Assembly: GCA_963965975.1 (NCBI GenBank)
Contig: OZ014415.1
Location: 7,321,001-7,385,000 of the forward strand
Direction of reading: 5' to 3'
From: Xestospongia bergquistia
Taxonomy: Eukaryota; Porifera; Demospongiae; Haplosclerida; Petrosiidae
DNA: 64,000 nucleotides
In this document: positions 1-29,684 of the stretch, one piece after another
How positions within the stretch are numbered: position 1 is the stretch's first letter
How the letters are laid out: each line of letters opens with the position of its first letter
Notes under the pieces: generated by a model
What the model saw: only the letters and a program-made list of their open reading frames with translations
The model's database searches: none
Told to the model about the DNA's origin: nothing
Program-made: the position numbers and the translations under genes

Positions 1-224
1 TCTTGAAACAAACTTAGTCAAGTGCAAATGGAATTTTCAGATCACTGTATTCCAATGTCTTTCAGTACATTTATAACCATTTAGTCTAACATGATGTATT
101 ATTGTCCAATTTTGTCTAAATTGAAATGATCCAGACTTTAATGAGTTTTTAAATTAATACCAAATACAATAAACCCAATGGATGTTACTGCATGATTACT
201 GAAATGTTTTCTTTTCCTATTCAG

Positions 225-769
225 GTTCATCTATTAGTCATGATGAAGGTGTGAAGCATTCAGCTGCAGGTGAGTCACAGTATTAACCTTTCAGATTGTT
301 TATGTTTCAAGAGATATATGTATCACATTAATAAATGTCACGACTGCATGTCATCTGATACAGACTATTCATCTCATTATAGATGACCTTTTCTTTTTGA
401 TAAATTACTAACAACTCTATGTTTTGTCTCTTTACTCTAGATGATACTTTAAACTATGAAATATGTAGAAGGACATTAGTTCAATGTACCGATATTATTG
501 TTGTGTCTAATATTGACCCCATTGCCCTAGCAAGGAAACTGTATTCAAAAGAAATTATTTCTGAGGATGTTTACAAAATTGTTAAAGACAAGAAAACAGG
601 AGATACTACTACAGATCGTCTTGACTATATTCTTGATGATCTAAAGGATCATGTCAAACACAATACTAGTACCTTCATGATTTTCCTAGATATTTTAAGA
701 GATGATAGTTTAAATCAACAAGACTTAGCTGATAAAATAATGTCAAAATATAAAGGTATGATATATTAA
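225..769 (+). CDS. C-terminal exons of a CARD-containing protein (partial, 5' end off window)
   Basis: Two exons are visible: 225-269 after a TTCAG acceptor, and 441-769 after a CTCTAG acceptor, ending at TAA. Both join in phase 1, so the frame continues through the intron. The last exon encodes about 109 residues with the spacing of a CARD: an N-terminal helix (DIIVVSNIDPIALARKLYSK), then acidic and helical segments ending LADKIMSKYKG. It aligns by eye with the CARD exon of the Kelch-Death-CARD gene at 10502-10824, and the short exon before it resembles that gene's exon 15. It is therefore probably the 3' end of a sister gene. CARDs pair with other CARDs in apoptosis and innate immune signalling; the partner here is unknown. 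The reading is good for structure, moderate for the CARD assignment. Confidence 0.6.
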
Positions 770-1569
770 ATACTTACTTTAGTAATTACTCTTTATTGTT
801 TTAGAATTGGTTACATGAAAGTAAAGAAAACAAAATGAGATCATTTTCATTTTATTAACAAACAAACACTTTACACATTATGAACACAATTATGATGATA
901 ATATTTAGTTTGTTATTGTCAAGTTAGTATAATTTCTAACACTAAAAAATTGTTAGAAATATTAAAATGCTCAAATTGAAATTATAATATATTTATTTTG
1001 ATCATAAATTATGTCAATATTTCTCCTCTTCTGGTATATTACAATTCTGTAATTGCTCTAACTCAATGAATACTGAATTGTATATTCACTCTTTAGACCA
1101 TTCCTGTATTCTCTTATCTCTAGTATGGTGTGTCTTCTGTGTCAAATTAATATTGCAATAATGGGAGTGGATCATTATAGATACATGTAATATTATGCTC
1201 AACTTGATTACTTAATTCATCTACTTTTGTTTTCTCTACTCTGAATTTCTAATTCACAAAACTGGTAATATACAGTGATATGTCACTAGATTCATGATAA
1301 TAACTATTCTATGTACAGTATATGTAGTTATAAGAGGTTATAATATTAACATCATTGTATAGAGTGAAACAAACTACTCATATTATATACCAGTACATTA
1401 CAATACATGTACTTTGTATTTACTTTCTGTCACTTTCTTTTCTCACTCTACCTTCCACTCACACCCTTTCTCATCTTCCCACTCTCTATCTATATTATAT
1501 ATCAGTACATTATTACTATCAACATAATATCATATAATATGATTAATTAATTGAGTGTTGTATTTTATT
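770..1569. other. Intergenic stretch, no gene seen
   Basis: AT-rich sequence after the CARD gene stop. It holds only short chance reading frames with no splice-linked protein signal. No promoter or RNA gene is recognisable. Confidence 0.5.
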
Positions 1570-2789: not shown

Positions 2790-2990
2790 CTAAAGAATGA
2801 AAAATAGAGAGTGATAATTGTTAATACATCCATCAATGCATTTGTACACCAATCCAGACATCCATCATTTTAGTACATCCAATAAATAATGTATCCATTC
2901 CTCTATCAACTATAGATACAAATATGTGGAGTGATTTTCTTCTTCACTACCAATAACATGTTATTTAACAAAAGTCTTCAGAACTGAGAG

Positions 2991-3332
2991 ATGAAAGAAG
3001 TATGCAGGCAAATTTCATTTGTGTTAGCTGAAGGTAGCACACTTATCAGTGGAGTGTGTTATATATCAGTATCCAGTTTGTCTGCGCTCAACAAACCAGT
3101 TACTGTTGAGTTAATGCATTGTGCTCATATAACTGATGAGAGACAGACACAATATTTGTCATTTGTTGCTGCTAAATCTGGTCCACCCTTTAAGTTTAAC
3201 TATCTACCTGGAGGATCATTCTCCTCTGAGTCTCAACGTGGCACTATATCTCTCAAACAATTTTCATTACTGGCTATAGTGCTCGTTATTGCTGGTGGTA
3301 CAGCTGCTGCAGTTGGTAGTTCTCTTTACTAA
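2991..3332 (+). pseudogene. Duplicated fragment of the ZU5-like exon
   Basis: From about residue 15 the frame matches the ZU5-like exon of the gene at 4111-10824 (its 9237-9520 part), starting at GSTLISGV and running through the hydrophobic AIVLVIAGGTAAAVG segment before diverging to a stop. The first residues are unrelated, so the copy begins inside the exon. No splice-linked exons surround it. It is probably a decayed duplicate, although the open frame is intact. Confidence 0.65.
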
Positions 3333-4110: not shown

Positions 4111-7100
4111 ATGGCTATTTCAGGTAATGTTACTAGATGTTATGTACTACCTTAATTAGTAGTAGTACAATATCTACACTTGTAGATATTATGTAGTCTC
4201 ACTAACTAGAGCATCTTTCTCTACAATGAGTGTCTAACTAGTGAGACTAGTATAATGTATGGACTACATGTATCATAATATATAGTAGAAGATGAGGATT
4301 AGGTTTGTGAAGTATATGTCAAGTATATAATTAGTCTTGTAGTATATGTGATGACATACTGTAGGTATATTACCTTATACTGTAACCTGATCTCAAGATA
4401 TGGTACATATCATTCTCTATAGGACAATACAAACTTGATGTAAGAGTTGAACATAGCACTCAAGTAATAGGAGATAACTTGTACCTGTGGGGTGGGTATG
4501 ATGTACCTTTAGTACACAATAATGATGAGAAGAGAAGATTAACATCACAGATTGCAATATTAAACATTACCTCTGGCATATGGAGCTCTAGATCAACCAA
4601 TGGAAGTCCCCCTCTAGGGGTGAAAGGGTACTTGTGTACTTCAATGAATGACAAAATTTATTATTTTGGTGGTCGATGTGAAAACAACAGCTGTTACCAT
4701 AACGGTCTCAACGAGTTAGTTATTTCTACCCTCACCTGGACCCAACTACAACCTACTGATGACAGGATATCAGTTATGAAGAGAGGCTATGGTGGTATTA
4801 TGTCAAGTAAACAAGCAGGTCATCATTGTCTTTTAGTTATTGGAGGTATTGGATCCCCACCCTCTATACAATTACCACAAGCTCAATATTATCAGCATCG
4901 TGATAGTAGAATATCTACTAATGAACATAATATATATGACCTGACAACAGGTAATAACATTAATATATCATATTATATTATCAGATATCACTTATTACAG
5001 TCAGTGTTATATGTTCTCTGTACTAGTTATATTTAGTATTAACATTATATAACTGTATTACATATAAATTAAAATAATAATATATTATTTATTCTATTAT
5101 CATAACATTATATTTTAGTTTATAATTCAGTAATTATTAAAGGTTATAAGTAAGTTTGATAGATTGGCTCTGTAATTCAAGTTTATTAAAATATTTGAAT
5201 ACATTTAAAGAGTAATGTGATTGTTGTTATAATTAATACAATATATTAATTGAAAAAATCATCTTATGATTGCTTTGTAAGATACTGACTTCACAATCAA
5301 CACTAACTATATAGAGCTACAATGATTATATAATTAACAGCAGTAGCTATGGACAAGAATAGCTTTTAAATATTAGGTAAAGAAGCAAGCTAGCGAGTAT
5401 TATCAGTCACTGCTGTGGCACCAGTTAATAAAGTTCATTGGTTGCTATGTTAATAGTATTCATTAGTTTCTGTATGTGTCAATGGTTATTGAATATGAAT
5501 ATTGAATATGGCTTAATTTCATTTATTGCTCTTAAACGTACAAATTTGCTAAAGTGGACATATATAATGTAAAAATATAAAGAGAAATTACATATGATCC
5601 ATAAAAATTATAGGACTACCTGACATATTATAAGTATTAATACATTTTACTGATCATTGTGTCATGATGGATTATCTAATTATTATGATACAAGTATAAT
5701 GATGAGTGTGTTCTCCTTTAGGTCAATGGATCATACCTGAGATTATTGGACAGTATATGCCACCTAATACTCACTTTGTTATGGAAGCAGTAAACAATAC
5801 AAGAGCAATCATCTTTGGTGGTGTAGTTGAAGCCAAATCATCTAATACACTCTATATACTGGATATCATCAACCATACAGTGGTAAGTTATAGTATCATT
5901 CATACACTGACTGATAACATGTTATATAATGAGTGTTACTTGAGTTCATTTGTCTATCTAGCACTGGCAGATTATAGCTAAACCTGACCCAGTAGTACAG
6001 TGGCCAAAGGAAAGAGACAGTCATGCTGCCAGTATTATCACTGGATCAATATCACCTATACTAGTAATAATAGGTGGACTAGATAAGACAAACAAAACAA
6101 TAAATGACTGTTGGATATTGGATATTAATGAGAAGTCATGGACAAAGGTATCTCATTGATAATATATCATATTATCTCTAATTTATTATACAATGATAGT
6201 TACTAAGTTAGTACATGTAACTGTCCATATATTTAGAAGTATAATAAATCATATTCATTTACTACTGATATATTATAATATGTTGTTATCTTCATTGTTA
6301 TCATAATTATCACCTTTGTATAAAATGACAGTTTACTTAAACTAGATATTATAAAATTAACTAAATGACATTAGGACATTGTGAACTTATGTAGGTAGGT
6401 TCACTTGAACCACAGTTATAACCTGTTTTTAGTGTGTATCAGTGCTCACTAGGAATACACTTTTATTATAGAGTATTTATCTAAAGTTTTTTGATGCAAT
6501 TATCATTGTATTGTTATTCCCATGGACCATGAAAAATACCTTAAACACAGCAAACAAACTGAGTAGAACATGTTAGAGTAAGATACTATATATAAGGTAG
6601 TATAAATATAATATTAGAAATTTATACTTAGTGAGTTAGCATTTGTGATGACTTATATCTCTTTGTTGTCTTGCGTAGGTAGGTTCACTTGAACCACAGT
6701 TATGACCTGTTTTTTAGTGTGTATCAGTGGTCACTAGAAATTCTATTTTTTATTTTAAAATATTAAGGAGTATACATCTAAAATGATACAATTAGTTCAC
6801 CATTGCACTGTTATTCCTATGGACCATGAAAAATGTCTTAAACAAAGCAAACAGACTGAGTAGAACATACTATAGTAATATACTATATAAAAGGTAATAT
6901 AAATGAAAATAATATTAAAATTATATTACTTTGTAAGTTAGTATTTATGATGATTTATATCTCTTTGTAACAAGTTACCAAGTAATTGTCAGTTTTAATA
7001 TCATATCAATAACTATTACTGTAATATAGCTGTCTAATCTGCATACACATATAAATGATGTAATAATATTTATATCTCTATATACTACAGATTAATCTAC

Positions 7101-10100
7101 CTGACTCTGTCACTGAGAGAGGACGCCACTCTCTATCAACATTTATAATGGGACCACATTGTGTGTGGTTAATAGTTATAGGAGGTAAACTACAGTATAA
7201 AGGTGCAGATGTCACAAACCCCAATATAACAATGTTGATTGAACTAGGTAAATAAATCATTACACGTATAATATAGATATTACATTGATTACACTTTTAC
7301 CTTTTTCTTTGAATTTTATGTCTGTAGTATTGTTATTAGGTGTGGTCAATAACCACTATTATTTACTATTACATGTACATCATGTATAAGTATAAGTAAT
7401 GTTACATGTAGTGTATTACATAGTATAGTCTTATTACTATCATATATGTTATACTAGTAGTACTACATTGTATACTGACATTAGTACTGTTGTGTTCAAT
7501 CATATAGTCCTCAATGATGGTCAATGGTCAGTAGGGTTTGTACTAGACTCTAATGCACTGACAGATCCTTCTGGAGTCATCAAAGATATAATGAGATTTA
7601 ATAATAGAAAACGATGTAGGAAAGAGGGCATTGACTTTGATCTCGAGGTATTCCAACCAAAAGACAATGAAGAAGGTGCTCAAACTAATAGTGAAACTCA
7701 TCTTCGTGATGTCTTAGTTTATCAACAAAGCATAAACAGTCTTCAAGAGAGACTACTAGAACTAGAATCTGAACAAGGTAGGATGAATTACATGTGTGAA
7801 TTAATGAAAGGATGGATGGACAGTTCGACAGAAGGATACATGGTATAAAAGAATGGATAAATGAATGAAGTAATGGATGAATAATTAAATAAATAAATGG
7901 ACAATACAAAGGATAGTCAATTAATGTACCTGTTCATGTATTGAACAAGCAAACTATATTTCATTAAGTGTTGTTACTTACTTCACTATAGTACAAGAGA
8001 ACTATAGCTATATAGCTGAACTTCAAAAGAAGGATGAGATCATAACAACACTACAGAAACAACTAGAACAATCTAATCAAGAGAGTAAGTGTACATGTGT
8101 ATGTATATACATGTATTTATATAGGGTCAAAGTATAAATAGATGAATAGTGTATTGGAGATTGATTAATGAATGTTGTTATTGTATTAATTCAATCATTT
8201 CATTATATTATAGTCTCAACTACCAGTGATCATCATGGCTTACAACAACTACATGATCTAGTACAACAAAAGGATAGCTATATAGCTCAACTAAATCGTA
8301 GATTACTTACTGTCTTAAAAGAGAAGGAAGATGCACTACAACAACTCAAGGTAACCAGTCATCAACAATTTTCACTCAGGAGTTCTCAAAAGACTACAGG
8401 TATTAGTTATTATTGTAATTAACAGTTAATTATTTTATTTTACATATCACATCAGATGTTGTCAGTTATCTTCCTAAACTGGCTGTTGTTCTACAACCAG
8501 TACAAGAGTATTGGGAACAACTGGGTCTACAACTTAATATAGATCAATCTGTACTGACTGATATCAGAAGTAAAGGAGATTCTATAGAACAAATGAAGTA
8601 CTTGTTAGAGGAATGGTCTCTAAAAGGAGGTACATTGACACAACTTGAAGAGGCTCTACTTCATCTTGACATGAAACATGTCATTCCTGGTAAGAGCTAT
8701 ATGTACATGTACATGTACTTCATGAATGGATTGATGGAATAATTAAAGATGGACAGGTTTATGAATGGATGAATCTAGTTATGAATGGATTGGTGGATGT
8801 GTAGCGAGTAATATCTCTTTAGTAATAGCAAAGAGATACACTAAATTATAATAACTGTCTATGTATGATTTGAACATAAATATGACTTATCATTAGGTTT
8901 ACTTGATCTACAAGACAAGACACAAGTCTCTACTAACTTCAATGATAAGTCTATACAATGTGACTATTGGAATTACACTAACATATCAGGTAACCTATAC
9001 TTATCATATGTAGTACTTTACTAATGTACTGTTAATGTTGTATAGACTCATTTGAAGGAATGGTGACAGTAGGAAAGAAGCTCTGTCTGTTCAATGCTCA
9101 TACTGAACATGAGTTAATATTGGAAGAATGTGGGTTAAGACTTGTCATCCCTGGAGAGGTCATCATACCAATAGAATCTGTATATGAAGTAGCTGCTCAA
9201 GGTTTATGGGGAGCAGGCAAATTTGAGTTCCCCAAAGGTAGCACACTTATCAGTGGAGTGTGTTTTATATCAGTATCCAGTTTGTCTGCGCTCAACAAAC
9301 CAGTTACTGTTGAGTTAATGCATTGTGCTCATATAACTGATGAGATACAGACACAATATTTGTCATTTGTTTCTGCTAAATCAGGTCCACCCTTTAAGTT
9401 TGACTACCTACCTGGAGGATCATTCTCCTCTGAGTCTCAATGTGGCACTATATCTTGCAAACAGTTCTCATTGTTGGCTATAGTACTCATTATTGCTGGC
9501 AGTACAGCTGCTGCAGTTGGTGGTGCTTTTGGTGGAGCTGTAGTTGGAGGTGGTGCAGCTGCTGTGGTAGGTGGTGCTGCCTTAGTAGTACATCTTGTAG
9601 TAGGACTTGGTAAGAAATGATCAATTATATTATATATATTAATTAATTATTCTTATAATATTAGGTGATGATGTCAAATATCCTAACTGTTACTATCAAG
9701 CTTATATCTTCTATAAACGTATGGGTCCTAAGAAATGGCATATAAACTTAGCTATTACACAAGATATCCAGTATTCAAAAGTAATAAAATTATTTAGAAT
9801 TCATGTCTAACTACATACACTGCCTCTATAGTGTCTTCAAGATTTGTCATCTAGTGCTGAATTTGGAGTAAAGCATTCTCACTTTCGATTTCATTTTTCT
9901 ACTAACACACTTCGATCAAGACAAATAGAGGAAAGAGCTGAGACGGAGAGTGATACAGAAATGATGTTAAAGCTTTCAGGATTCCCTGCTGATGATGTAA
10001 TGTCTTCAGGTTGGAGAGTACAACCTCTACGTATACCTTCTTTAGTAAGTGAACAATGTAATGTTATAATCAAATTAGTTATGATATCTATTTTATTTAT

Positions 10101-10824
10101 AGATCAACAAAAGAGATGTTGATGATTATAATCAATCAAAGAGTGCTAGTCCTCCATATATTCCTGTACTAATATGTGCTCATCCTAACACAAGTGACTT
10201 TGAAGAACAACTACAATATCCTCTAACTATTGAAGGTATTGAAGTAACTGATACTAAAAGTCAAATATCATCTAACAACAATCAACCAAAAATTGTCCTT
10301 GATGTATCACTGGATGATTATAGTAAGTATCTTGAAAATATATCATATATAAACATTTAATTCAGGTTCACACGCTACTGACAATGAAGATATAAGTAGA
10401 GGACTAGAGTCAACTACAGGTTTGTACTAATGTCAGATTATTTTTTGTAGTACAAGATAATAAGATTGCTTTGTTAATAGCTATTTTTTTTTACTTTACA
10501 GCACTTGAAGATCAACATCCAATAGAAATATTTCGTACTAATATGGCTGATCTTATAAAAGCCATTACTTCTAATCTTGATGAAATTACTGACAGATTGT
10601 TCTCAGAGAGATTGATAGGAGAAGATGTACTGCAGTCTACTACTACAGAAGGTGTCTCTAATTATCGGAAAGCAAGAAAAGTAGTTCATGAATTGTTCAA
10701 TTTGCTACAAGCTCACAGAGATCCCAAGCAATATCTAATTACATTTTGTGAGGTACTATTGAAACAAGATGATCCAAGATTAAGAGATATTGCTAACAAC
10801 ATTAAAGGAAAGTTGTGTTTATAG
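4111..10824 (+). CDS. Kelch-coiled coil-Death-ZU5/UPA-like-CARD protein
   Basis: Sixteen exons close in frame to 1136 aa: 4111-4123, 4423-4950, 5722-5882, 5962-6147, 7091-7247, 7508-7777, 7992-8084, 8214-8399, 8456-8689, 8897-8989, 9046-9609, 9665-9780, 9832-10044, 10103-10322, 10366-10419, 10502-10824. The ATG at 4111 directly follows an in-frame TAA. Residues 1-348 carry six Kelch motifs with GG doublets (LYLWGG, IYYFGG, LLVIGG, AIIFGG, LVIIGG, LIVIGG). Residues 349-531 are coiled coil. Residues 532-609 match a Death domain (WEQLGLQL, then LLEEW and LEEALLHLD). Residues 641-828 are ZU5-like and end in a Gly/Ala-rich hydrophobic run. Residues 829-1011 resemble a UPA-like continuation, and 1030-1136 form a CARD. 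Death and CARD domains bind like domains, so a cytosolic signalling scaffold is inferred. I know of no vertebrate protein with this order. Confidence 0.8.
6370..6970. repeat. Tandem duplication of about 290 bp inside an intron
   Basis: Two imperfect copies lie in the intron between Kelch exons 4 and 5. Each begins near GTAGGTAGGTTCACTTGAAC (about 6391 and 6678) and includes the same CATGGACCATG/ATGGACCATG and GAGTAGAACAT landmarks in order. Confidence 0.7.
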
Positions 10825-11208
10825 GTTTTTTAGTTTGCTATTTTGTCAATATTAGTTAAACAGTATTTGCTTAATTACTGTTATATTAACAATATATATA
10901 TTTTTAATTACTTAAACTATTTCTTTAAAATGTACACAAACACACACTTTTGATTTCATTAATTTATTAATATATACCTTTTTCATAATTATACTATTTA
11001 ATGTCAAGAAACACTTAAGATTTAAGAAGATCAAGTTAAGAACATCTGCATATGTGTCCCTTCATCACTCCTTTCTTCCAGCTGATGTCCAGTTAAGTTA
11101 AACAACAAAATGAGTGTCTTATGACATTTATGTTAGTTGATGTCCTCCTACAGGTTAGTATTATATATTACATACAGAATGATAGAGCTTTTAAATGTCT
11201 TTTGAAAG
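10825..11208. other. Intergenic stretch, no gene seen
   Basis: Follows the CARD gene stop. AT-rich, with no open frame or splice-linked exon that I can support. Confidence 0.4.
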
Positions 11209-12205
11209 TACATTGATGCTTCACTACCAATTGTTGAGAAAGATGTCAATATATCCTTCAAATTTCAAGAAGAAAATGGTTACATAGAGTTATGTATTGG
11301 AGAAGAGCAAGAACATTTATTTCAAGGATGGAATATCTGTCCTCATTTACATCCTATCAAGCATTGGCAAAGTACACTTAATAATCACTGTATTTATAGA
11401 TAATTCAAGAAGTTGTTGACAAGTTTGGAGCATGTACTCCTCCCCAATTTCCTTCTTGTCTAGTGACAGTATCTGCTATTCCAAGTGATACTAGAAATTC
11501 ATTATGGTATTACTTTGCAAAGGTATCAATTTAAGTGAAGAACCACTCACTCCAAAAATCTATATTGTATTATCACTTGGTGATTGCTTACAATCAATCA
11601 AGCAAGTTATCTCATAATGTCTTTATTATATAGCTACAATGTACAACAGCCACTTAGAGCATTACATAATATTGAAAGTAAGTTAAATGTATATTGCACT
11701 ATTAAGATTTAAAAAACTTTTATTACATATTTTCTTCAAGTTTTGAACACAATTGTTATCCATCATAAATTCTCATCAATATTGAGATTAGGATGAACAC
11801 GCTAACAAACCAATGAGATGTAATTATATGTTTTGTTTATATCTTTTAGTATTGGTAATTATAAATGTTCTCTCTATAATTTTCAGTACAAGTAGAAGAG
11901 TCCAATCCATCTGAGATATTCCATACTCACAGTGCTGATCTTAGTGAAGCTATTGCCACTGATCTTGATCGAGTAACTGACAGACTGTTTGCTGAAAGAA
12001 TAATAGGACAATCTATAGTACAGTTTACTACTACAGAAGGTGTCTCTAATTATCGTAAAGCTAGAAAAGTAGTTCATGAATTGTTCAACCTATTACAAGC
12101 ACATGGGAACCCAAAGCAGTATCTAACTCAGATTGTAATGTACTTTTAAAACAAGATGATATGAGATTAAGGGACATTGCAAACAGTATCATTGCTAAGT
12201 TATAA
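11209..12205 (+). pseudogene. Decayed copy of UPA-like exons plus CARD exon
   Basis: Three blocks match exons 13, 14 and 16 of the upstream Kelch-Death-CARD gene in order: 11209-11371 (…GWNICPHLHPIK, compare GWRVQPLRIPS), 11400-11522 (VVDKFGACTPPQFPS…) and 11887-12205 (CARD). There are two breaks. The first block has no GT donor in the phase needed to join the second. The CARD block has lost one base around 12131-12150, so the frame stops early while the lost frame still reads a normal CARD tail to 12205. No Kelch, Death or ZU5 exons precede it, because the parent gene ends at 10824. It is most likely a partial duplicate. A short CARD-only product from the intact part cannot be excluded. Confidence 0.65.
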
Positions 12206-12890
12206 TTGTTATTGTAATTTGTTCAACATTTTACTATAGGACTTTCTTATTATGACATTTAATGTTTTAAAGTACATGTACTATTGTTTTAAAATACACA
12301 CATAACACATTAATTAGTGGGTTATTAAAAGTTATTTGTATTATCTGTTTTTTTAGTGAGTTACAATAATAATTTTTGTATTCAATGTAATTTCCTTCTC
12401 CAAAGAATATCTTTAATTTCAACAAGTACAAGACATTTTACATATTGTTTCAGTCACTCTACTTCTCAAGAGTTTTCCATATAATAGTCCAAATATCTTC
12501 ATTGCAGTGGATACAGAGTCTATGACACTGACATTATGTAATAATTGACTATATACCTTGTTTGATTAAAAAGAGACAATTGTTCTGTTAGTTAAATAAT
12601 AAGAGACAAAATATATAAATTAATATTTTTTGTACCAGTATATATTTTATACTATCTACTCGTTATTCAATCCTCTATCTTTTCATCCATTGGATTCATC
12701 CATCTATCAGAATAGGTAAAAGAAGAAATGAATAAATAAATGAACAGATGAATGGATAAATAATAACTAAATAATAAAACAAGATTAATTATTATTATCA
12801 ATACATTCATTAAGATCAATAGAAAAAGATATATAAAGAAGAATTGATATTTAGATAAAATGGTGAGCAAGGTATCTCTCTATCCATTTA
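12206..12890. other. Intergenic stretch between CARD remnants
   Basis: AT-rich, with stretches built from short ATCCATT/AATGAATG words near 12680-12890. No gene seen. Confidence 0.4.
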
Positions 12891-12894
12891 TTTC

Positions 12895-13063
12895 TACACA
12901 AGATGTCTCTAATTATTGGAAGGCAAGAAAAGTAGATATGAACTGTTCAATTTACTACAAACTCACAACAGAGCTACAAAGTAATATCTAGCTACACTTT
13001 GTGATGTACTATTAAAACAAGAAAGTAAATGATATTGCTAACAGTATTAAAACTAAGTTGTAG
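12895..13063 (+). pseudogene. Heavily decayed CARD exon
   Basis: Contains the landmarks of the CARD exon in order (GTCTCTAATTATTGGAAGGC, GATGTACTATTAAAACAAG, GATATTGCTAACAGTATTAA) but with several frameshifts and internal stops. It is the most degraded of the CARD copies in the window. Confidence 0.65.

Positions 13064-13776: not shown

Positions 13777-29684
<15,908 letters not shown>

Follow-up and report, generated by a model that had tools for sequence, protein, structure and literature searches.

A predicted sponge gene joining Kelch, Death, ZU5 and CARD-fold domains, and apparent exchange of tails within its family

In a 64,000-nucleotide stretch of the genome of the sponge Xestospongia bergquistia (the window), a gene at positions 4,111 to 10,824 is predicted to encode one protein in which a Kelch propeller is followed by a coiled coil, a Death domain, a ZU5 domain, a UPA-like part and a C-terminal CARD-fold domain. 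We consider it probable that this gene is one of a large, germline-encoded family whose modular products look like receptors and resemble NLRP1, CARD8 and PIDD, but with Kelch as the sensor. As read from the genomic DNA, one Kelch family continues either into a coiled coil and protein kinase or into a coiled coil, Death, ZU5, UPA-like and death-fold tail, and sensors and tails appear to have been swapped many times among the members.

Rebuilt base by base, the 16 exons (4111-4123 to 10502-10824; Table 1) have GT donors and AG acceptors throughout and keep phase, and the spliced gene is a single open frame of exactly 1136 amino acids plus a stop, as an earlier note made from the letters of this DNA had modelled it; that note's central observation, this domain order in one gene model, is confirmed. 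The Kelch part matches PF24681 in Pfam (E 3.3e-37, 128.4 bits against a cut-off of 50), and the Death domain that the note had named is found when exon 9 is scanned alone (PF00531, 31.6 bits, cut-off 22.6), while no NACHT match occurs at E <= 1 in the window protein. Exon 16 is modelled by AlphaFold as a six-helix CARD fold with a split first helix, at a predicted local distance difference test score (pLDDT) of 94.3, and its top ten VIA rows comprise eight entries with the Apaf-1 CARD, the SP100 CARD and one designed protein, which upholds the claim of two death-fold domains in one chain, Death by Pfam and CARD by structure. ZU5 is assigned a beta-sandwich fold, through the model of an Amphimedon relative, and its profile (PF00791) passes the cut-off at 33 places in the genome, nine of them in Kelch-Death-ZU5 loci. 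Searches of the PDB by sequence, with the ZU5 piece and with the family profile A1, recovered no ZU5 entry, the profile returning Kelch proteins and, more weakly, others that included lipocalins and coiled coils, so that comparison of structures was needed.

The gene has dozens of relatives in its own genome, as the earlier note had suspected in proposing a lineage-specific family: matching rows number 136 for Kelch, 151 for ZU5, 147 for CARD and 75 for Death. When 111 Kelch loci were scored for downstream domains on the same strand, a kinase came next in 64, Death, ZU5 and/or CARD in 36 and CARD only in 2, with no such domain found after the other 9; all three death-type domains stand in order in 18 of the 36, including the window gene and a near-identical inverted copy at C5:6.78 Mb. 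Ordered Kelch-Death-ZU5 runs number 29, against a mean of 0.0 in 200 shuffles. Five paralogues (L039, L040, L041, L044 and L045) have Kelch, coiled-coil, Death, ZU5 and CARD exons in the same order. In these five full paralogues the acceptors (20/20) and donors (20/20) of Kelch exons 2-5 are all kept, and over all tested exons at 15 loci 108/133 acceptors and 105/123 donors are kept, many of the misses being exon ends beyond the reach of the alignment. The ratio of nonsynonymous to synonymous divergence (dN/dS) between the window gene and its paralogues is 0.33-0.66 in Kelch (5 loci), 0.12-0.70 in Death, 0.18-0.58 in ZU5, 0.28-0.85 in the UPA-like part and 0.14-0.79 in CARD, and 0.41-0.87 in the coiled coil with a single value of 1.74 (L029), identical copies and saturated cells yielding no ratio. 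Two further arrangements were noticed. Locus L043 has a leucine-rich repeat (LRR) stretch (PF13516, E 5e-8), then a coiled coil, Death and a ZU5 with an HFC motif, of the type called cassette B below, a combination that looks PIDD-like; L046 and L047 have a CARD-family domain ahead of ZU5 and, at another place in the locus, a Death match below threshold, seemingly the same modules in reversed order.

Exchange of the output is seen at L088 (C5:6952300-6956000), where four stretches of Kelch exons and introns are 88-92% identical to the window. The last stretch stops at window base 7562, inside exon 6, past which the L088 exon runs on in the same frame into a coiled coil and then a protein kinase; because one exon fuses the Kelch tail with a kinase, the Kelch end evidently continues into an output module. 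In L039, too, an exon that begins like exon 6 leads into a frame of coiled coil and kinase, and a Kelch-Death-ZU5-CARD gene lies directly next to it. The output labels used here are given by order along the DNA, and direct reading confirmed three of them (L039, L087 and L088). In a tree of 45 Kelch exon-2 sequences, 40 carry labels (27 are death-type and 13 kinase), and 9 changes of the kinase label are needed, at least 5 of these being forced by well-supported branches, although gene conversion within exon 2 may inflate the number; shuffled labels gave a mean of 11.5 changes, and 21 of 500 shuffles were as low as the observed 9. This interchange of Kelch between kinase and death tails could not be seen from the window. 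The earlier note's interpretation, in which one chain could bind a ligand through Kelch and recruit two death-fold families, is partly supported. A separate Kelch cluster lies on contig C11 at about 0.1-2.3 Mb, with about 42% identity to the window Kelch and a protein kinase after each Kelch. All 38 Kelch loci taken from this distant cluster have the kinase, and in one of them, L087, a single open exon holds the Kelch tail together with coiled coil and kinase. Among the best 120 of 5506 matches to the kinase exon in a protein search, all are kinase predictions without names.

Within the death-type tail a second unit has moved, as comparison of the paralogues shows. Between the window and L039, L040 and L044 the DNA is alike, piece by piece, from Kelch through Death; the likeness breaks off at 8694-8708 and resumes at 10517-10525. 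Synonymous divergence from L039 is 0.29 in Kelch, 0.16 in Death and 0.22 in CARD but 2.25 in ZU5, whereas from L012 it is about 0.1 in the coiled coil, Death, ZU5 and UPA but 0.99 in CARD, and from L013 it is 0.03 in CARD. The ZU5-UPA cassette has thus been exchanged between members, to judge from these divergences. Two types can be told apart: cassette A, with a hydrophobic stretch after its ZU5 (peak hydropathy 1.86-2.65 in those own-genome exons that are long enough; 2.21 and 2.15 at residues 783-828 of the window protein), and cassette B, without it wherever the exon was read on (L039, L042, L043 and L047).

Outside the source genome, a search with the window protein gave four matches, all from the sponge Amphimedon queenslandica and 35-44% identical to the query along part of its length, and a search with one of these, P0001, added two further Amphimedon proteins. 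Four of them are considered here (P0001, LOC109582437; P0003, LOC109588143; P0005, A0A1X7ULS2; P0006, LOC109585266), P0004, a transposase-Kelch fusion model, having been set aside. These unnamed predicted proteins share the order Kelch, coiled coil and ZU5 (the P0006 model lacks Kelch), and the linker motif IQCDYW in exon 10 of the window gene is shared with Amphimedon. P0003 spans Kelch through ZU5, and P0001 runs from Kelch through coiled coil, ZU5 and a short hydrophobic stretch to a CARD of the same family, its C-terminal stretch scoring 65.6 bits with the CARD profile of the family when the six proteins were searched; no Death domain was found in the same six (best full-sequence E 0.016). 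The Kelch-to-CARD chain is consequently not confined to the source genome, and of the domain order that the earlier note had proposed to look for in other sponges, P0001 has Kelch, ZU5 and CARD, with no Death domain found. P0001, P0005 and P0006 are nearest to cassette A, their best identities being 55-62% with A and no more than 44% with B, and P0003 is nearest to cassette B, with up to 57% identity to B and no more than 35% to A; since Amphimedon has members of both types, the two cassettes must be older than the split between the lineages.

Death-fold proteins with repeat domains have expanded in Amphimedon in another form, the TRADD-N and Death-like proteins, which are likewise a sponge lineage expansion but have another core domain, and the word 'kelch' is absent from the main text that describes them (PMC8195603); TRADD-N proteins with FIIND/ZU5 are predicted there to self-cleave. 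This expansion, with the NACHT-Zu5 genes of early animals (PMC12909245), is the nearest theme in print. A 'Kelch motif containing gene' is reported to be lowered in both sponges that were exposed to microbial molecules (PMC6208332), a loose pointer to immunity if that gene belongs to this family. No title or opening of an abstract in the literature searched treats Kelch combined with Death, ZU5 and CARD, or Kelch-kinase receptor families of sponges, an absence that is weak evidence. The parts are known; the chain from Kelch through coiled coil, Death, ZU5 and the UPA-like part to CARD, together with its exchange with a kinase tail, did not turn up in that literature and is apparently new.

The innate receptor families usually named for animals are NLR, TLR, SRCR and RLR. 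Here another sensor fold appears to be the unit that recombines, moving between a kinase and a death-fold tail, and this would parallel in animals the shuffling of domains described for immune receptors of plants and fungi. The earlier note had compared the protein with UNC5, PIDD and ankyrins, leaving out NLRP1 and CARD8, and because these end in ZU5-UPA-CARD the tail of the window protein has a close known counterpart. As in NLRP1 and CARD8, a sensor on the N-terminal side is followed by a ZU5 fold, a UPA-like part and a C-terminal CARD, with F-S at the aligned cleavage position; unlike them, the window protein has Kelch and a coiled coil in place of NACHT-LRR, a Death domain in addition, a hydrophobic stretch after the F-S and no catalytic His at the expected place, and its sequence is too distant for the FIIND and UPA profiles. 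PIDD1 also combines a repeat-type sensor with ZU5, UPA and Death, and shares the F-S motif (as HFS in two paralogues here), but it has LRRs and two ZU5 domains, whereas the window protein has Kelch, one ZU5, Death ahead of ZU5 and a terminal CARD. UNC5 and the ankyrins likewise set ZU5-UPA beside a death fold, and the ZU5 models align well with theirs; UNC5b lacks the Phe of the motif, and neither Kelch nor CARD is known from UNC5 or the ankyrins.

The ZU5 of the window protein ends in Q780-F781-S782 (F-S codons at 9465-9470), and x-F-S/C closes ZU5 in all 35 distinct exons that reach the motif (the exon of L031 ends before it and is excluded), with S in 33 and C in 2 (QFS 18, KFS 8, EFS 4, HFS 2, HFC 2, RFS 1); the Amphimedon proteins have SFS (P0001, P0005 and P0006) or EFS (P0003). 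If the last ten aligned residues are gapless, the ends of the structure-alignment ranges place F410-S411 of P0006 on F968-S969 of rat NLRP1, where that protein was found to be cleaved (PMC8081665), and F410 on L677 of UNC5b, which has been equated with F296 of the SF/S site of CARD8 (PMC3210808). The position thus seems right for a cleavage site; the cleavage chemistry is unproven, and we think it possible, rather less likely than its opposite, that the window copy cleaves itself. An HFS in exon 13 (KHSHFRFHFSTNT) was tried as the cleavage site and dropped; F781-S782 is preferred because the exon-13 motif lies beyond ZU5 and is missing from most relatives.

In the mechanism that we propose, the Kelch propeller would bind either a ligand or a protein that it guards, oligomerisation would fall to the coiled coil, and ZU5-UPA would restrain the C-terminal CARD, probably also Death, as in autoinhibited UNC5b and NLRP1/CARD8. 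Release would cluster Death and CARD and recruit CARD- or Death-bearing partners such as caspases, and in some members the F-S bond at the ZU5 end may self-cleave and free a UPA-CARD fragment. Cleavage of that bond would make the NLRP1/CARD8 mechanism much more ancient than the vertebrate FIIND-CARD proteins, with roots as far back as sponges. A serious competitor, which we nevertheless favour less, is a non-cleaving scaffold similar to UNC5 or the ankyrins, in which ZU5-UPA would pack on the death folds and open on Kelch binding and the F-S would be structural. UNC5b, however, has Leu where the cleavers have Phe, while Phe followed by Ser or Cys is found in 35/35 of the family exons, SFS recurs in three Amphimedon members, and exactly HFS occurs in the paralogues L022 (with a later stop) and L033 (read in part).

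A bolder extension seems to us rather unlikely, namely a germline mix-and-match in which one Kelch repertoire is recombined between kinase and self-cleaving FIIND-like outputs and cleavage of cassette A yields a membrane-targeting or membrane-inserting CARD fragment; were it true, this fragment would consist of a Gly/Ala-rich hydrophobic segment, UPA and CARD.

That two neighbouring genes, one for Kelch (exons ~1-6) and one for Death-ZU5-UPA-CARD, were joined by the exon model alone is improbable: for 18 of 71 Death matches a ZU5 does follow within 3 kb while the 9 kb upstream hold no family Kelch, but in the paralogues the two parts are linked by coiled-coil exons whose phases match and whose splice sites are conserved, the predicted P0001 and P0003 span Kelch to ZU5 (P0001 reaching CARD), and L088 fuses Kelch tail, coiled coil and kinase in one open exon. 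A decaying duplicate cluster with a non-functional window copy deserves hardly any credence, since in spite of fragments nearby (2988-3332 and 11095-13061) and stops in paralogues such as L021 and L022 the window copy reads through 1136 codons with intact splice sites and without a stop, and its domains show dN/dS below 1.

Several observations weigh against the reading that we prefer, a Kelch-sensing receptor of the NLRP1/CARD8/PIDD kind. Scanned as pieces, the window copies of ZU5 (18.1 bits, cut-off 21) and CARD (PF00619, 19.2 bits, cut-off 23.9) fall short in Pfam, and no UPA or FIIND profile matches the window protein at E <= 1; of the domains that the earlier note had proposed for profile searches, Kelch and Death were recovered, CARD is carried by its fold, ZU5 stands by fold and in paralogues above the cut-off but not by the score of the window copy, and the part after it is UPA-like. 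The outcome that the note had named as refuting, no Death or CARD profile match, therefore did not occur for Death. Pfam finds CARD at E <= 0.1 in 2 of 15 CARD relatives, Foldseek returned nothing at E <= 0.001 for the CARD model (E never below 0.46), and the UPA-like part of P0006 (431-560) has a pLDDT of 44-64. The match of the F-S residues holds if no gap falls in the last ten aligned residues, and the His that NLRP1 and CARD8 carry 26 residues ahead of the cleaved bond (in rat NLRP1 the catalytic H942 against F968) has no counterpart at that spacing in the window ZU5, whose His residues are at 659, 662, 733 and 736, the nearest 45 residues before F781. P0006 has a ZU5 of cassette-A type without the hydrophobic stretch, which is therefore not essential to type A. 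Outputs are only slightly clustered on the Kelch tree, which fits exchange but leaves the label with little history, and Kelch exon 2 gave no convincing signal of positive selection (omega 0.52; 4/175 sites at uncorrected p < 0.05, 48/184 columns under constraint). That Kelch through CARD form one chain is a prediction supported by gene models and paralogues, and it is from domains that we infer sensing, release, partners and a role in immunity.

Table 1. Parts of the Kelch-to-CARD gene and neighbouring features in the window.
Feature	Position	Strand	Basis
Exon 1 (MAIS)	4111..4123	+	Splice model
Exon 2, Kelch propeller part 1	4423..4950	+	Splice model, Pfam; sites kept in 5/5 full paralogues
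Exon 3, Kelch	5722..5882	+	Splice model, Pfam, paralogue splice sites
Exon 4, Kelch	5962..6147	+	Splice model, Pfam, paralogue splice sites
Exon 5, Kelch	7091..7247	+	Splice model, Pfam, paralogue splice sites
Exon 6, Kelch tail, then start of coiled coil	7508..7777	+	Splice model, DNA alignment with L088
Exon 7, coiled coil	7992..8084	+	Splice model
Exon 8, coiled coil	8214..8399	+	Splice model
Exon 9, Death domain	8456..8689	+	Pfam 31.6 bits, cut-off 22.6
Exon 10, linker, within exchanged ZU5-UPA cassette	8897..8989	+	Splice model
ZU5 domain in exon 11	9046..9470	+	Pfam sub-threshold; paralogues pass cut-off; Amphimedon fold
Gly/Ala/Val-rich hydrophobic stretch, end of exon 11 (aa 783-828)	9471..9609	+	Hydropathy
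UPA-like part, exons 12-14 (9665-9780, 9832-10044, 10103-10322)	9665..10322	+	Splice model
Exon 15, linker	10366..10419	+	Splice model
Exon 16, C-terminal CARD-fold domain and stop	10502..10824	+	AlphaFold, PDB comparison; Pfam sub-threshold
Tail of upstream Kelch-Death-ZU5 gene L015, different C-terminal domain	1..770	+	
Isolated cassette-A ZU5 exon fragment (ZU5 match 3012-3323)	2988..3332	+	
Remnant of another copy's tail: cassette-B UPA-like and CARD pieces	11095..12576	+	

The cluster of related pieces that the earlier note had seen at 1-13 kb is real, comprising the ZU5 fragment and CARD pieces at 11892-12131 and ~12886-13061; the remnant downstream of the gene is 89.5% identical to L040. 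The C-terminal domain of L015 (437-757) resembles bacterial Death-like domain 1 (bDLD1) at E 6e-4, below the cut-off, with a weak CARD match. The inverted copy of the region (C5:6780000-6797500), which includes the upstream Kelch gene and has 3570 bases at 100.0% with L010, may be a recent inverted duplication or an assembly artefact. Minus-strand pieces of protein tyrosine phosphatase flank the Kelch gene at 1991-2323, 13780-14151 and 15954-16151 (Pfam E 2.8e-5, 4e-5 and 2.3e-12), the first two reading nearly alike.
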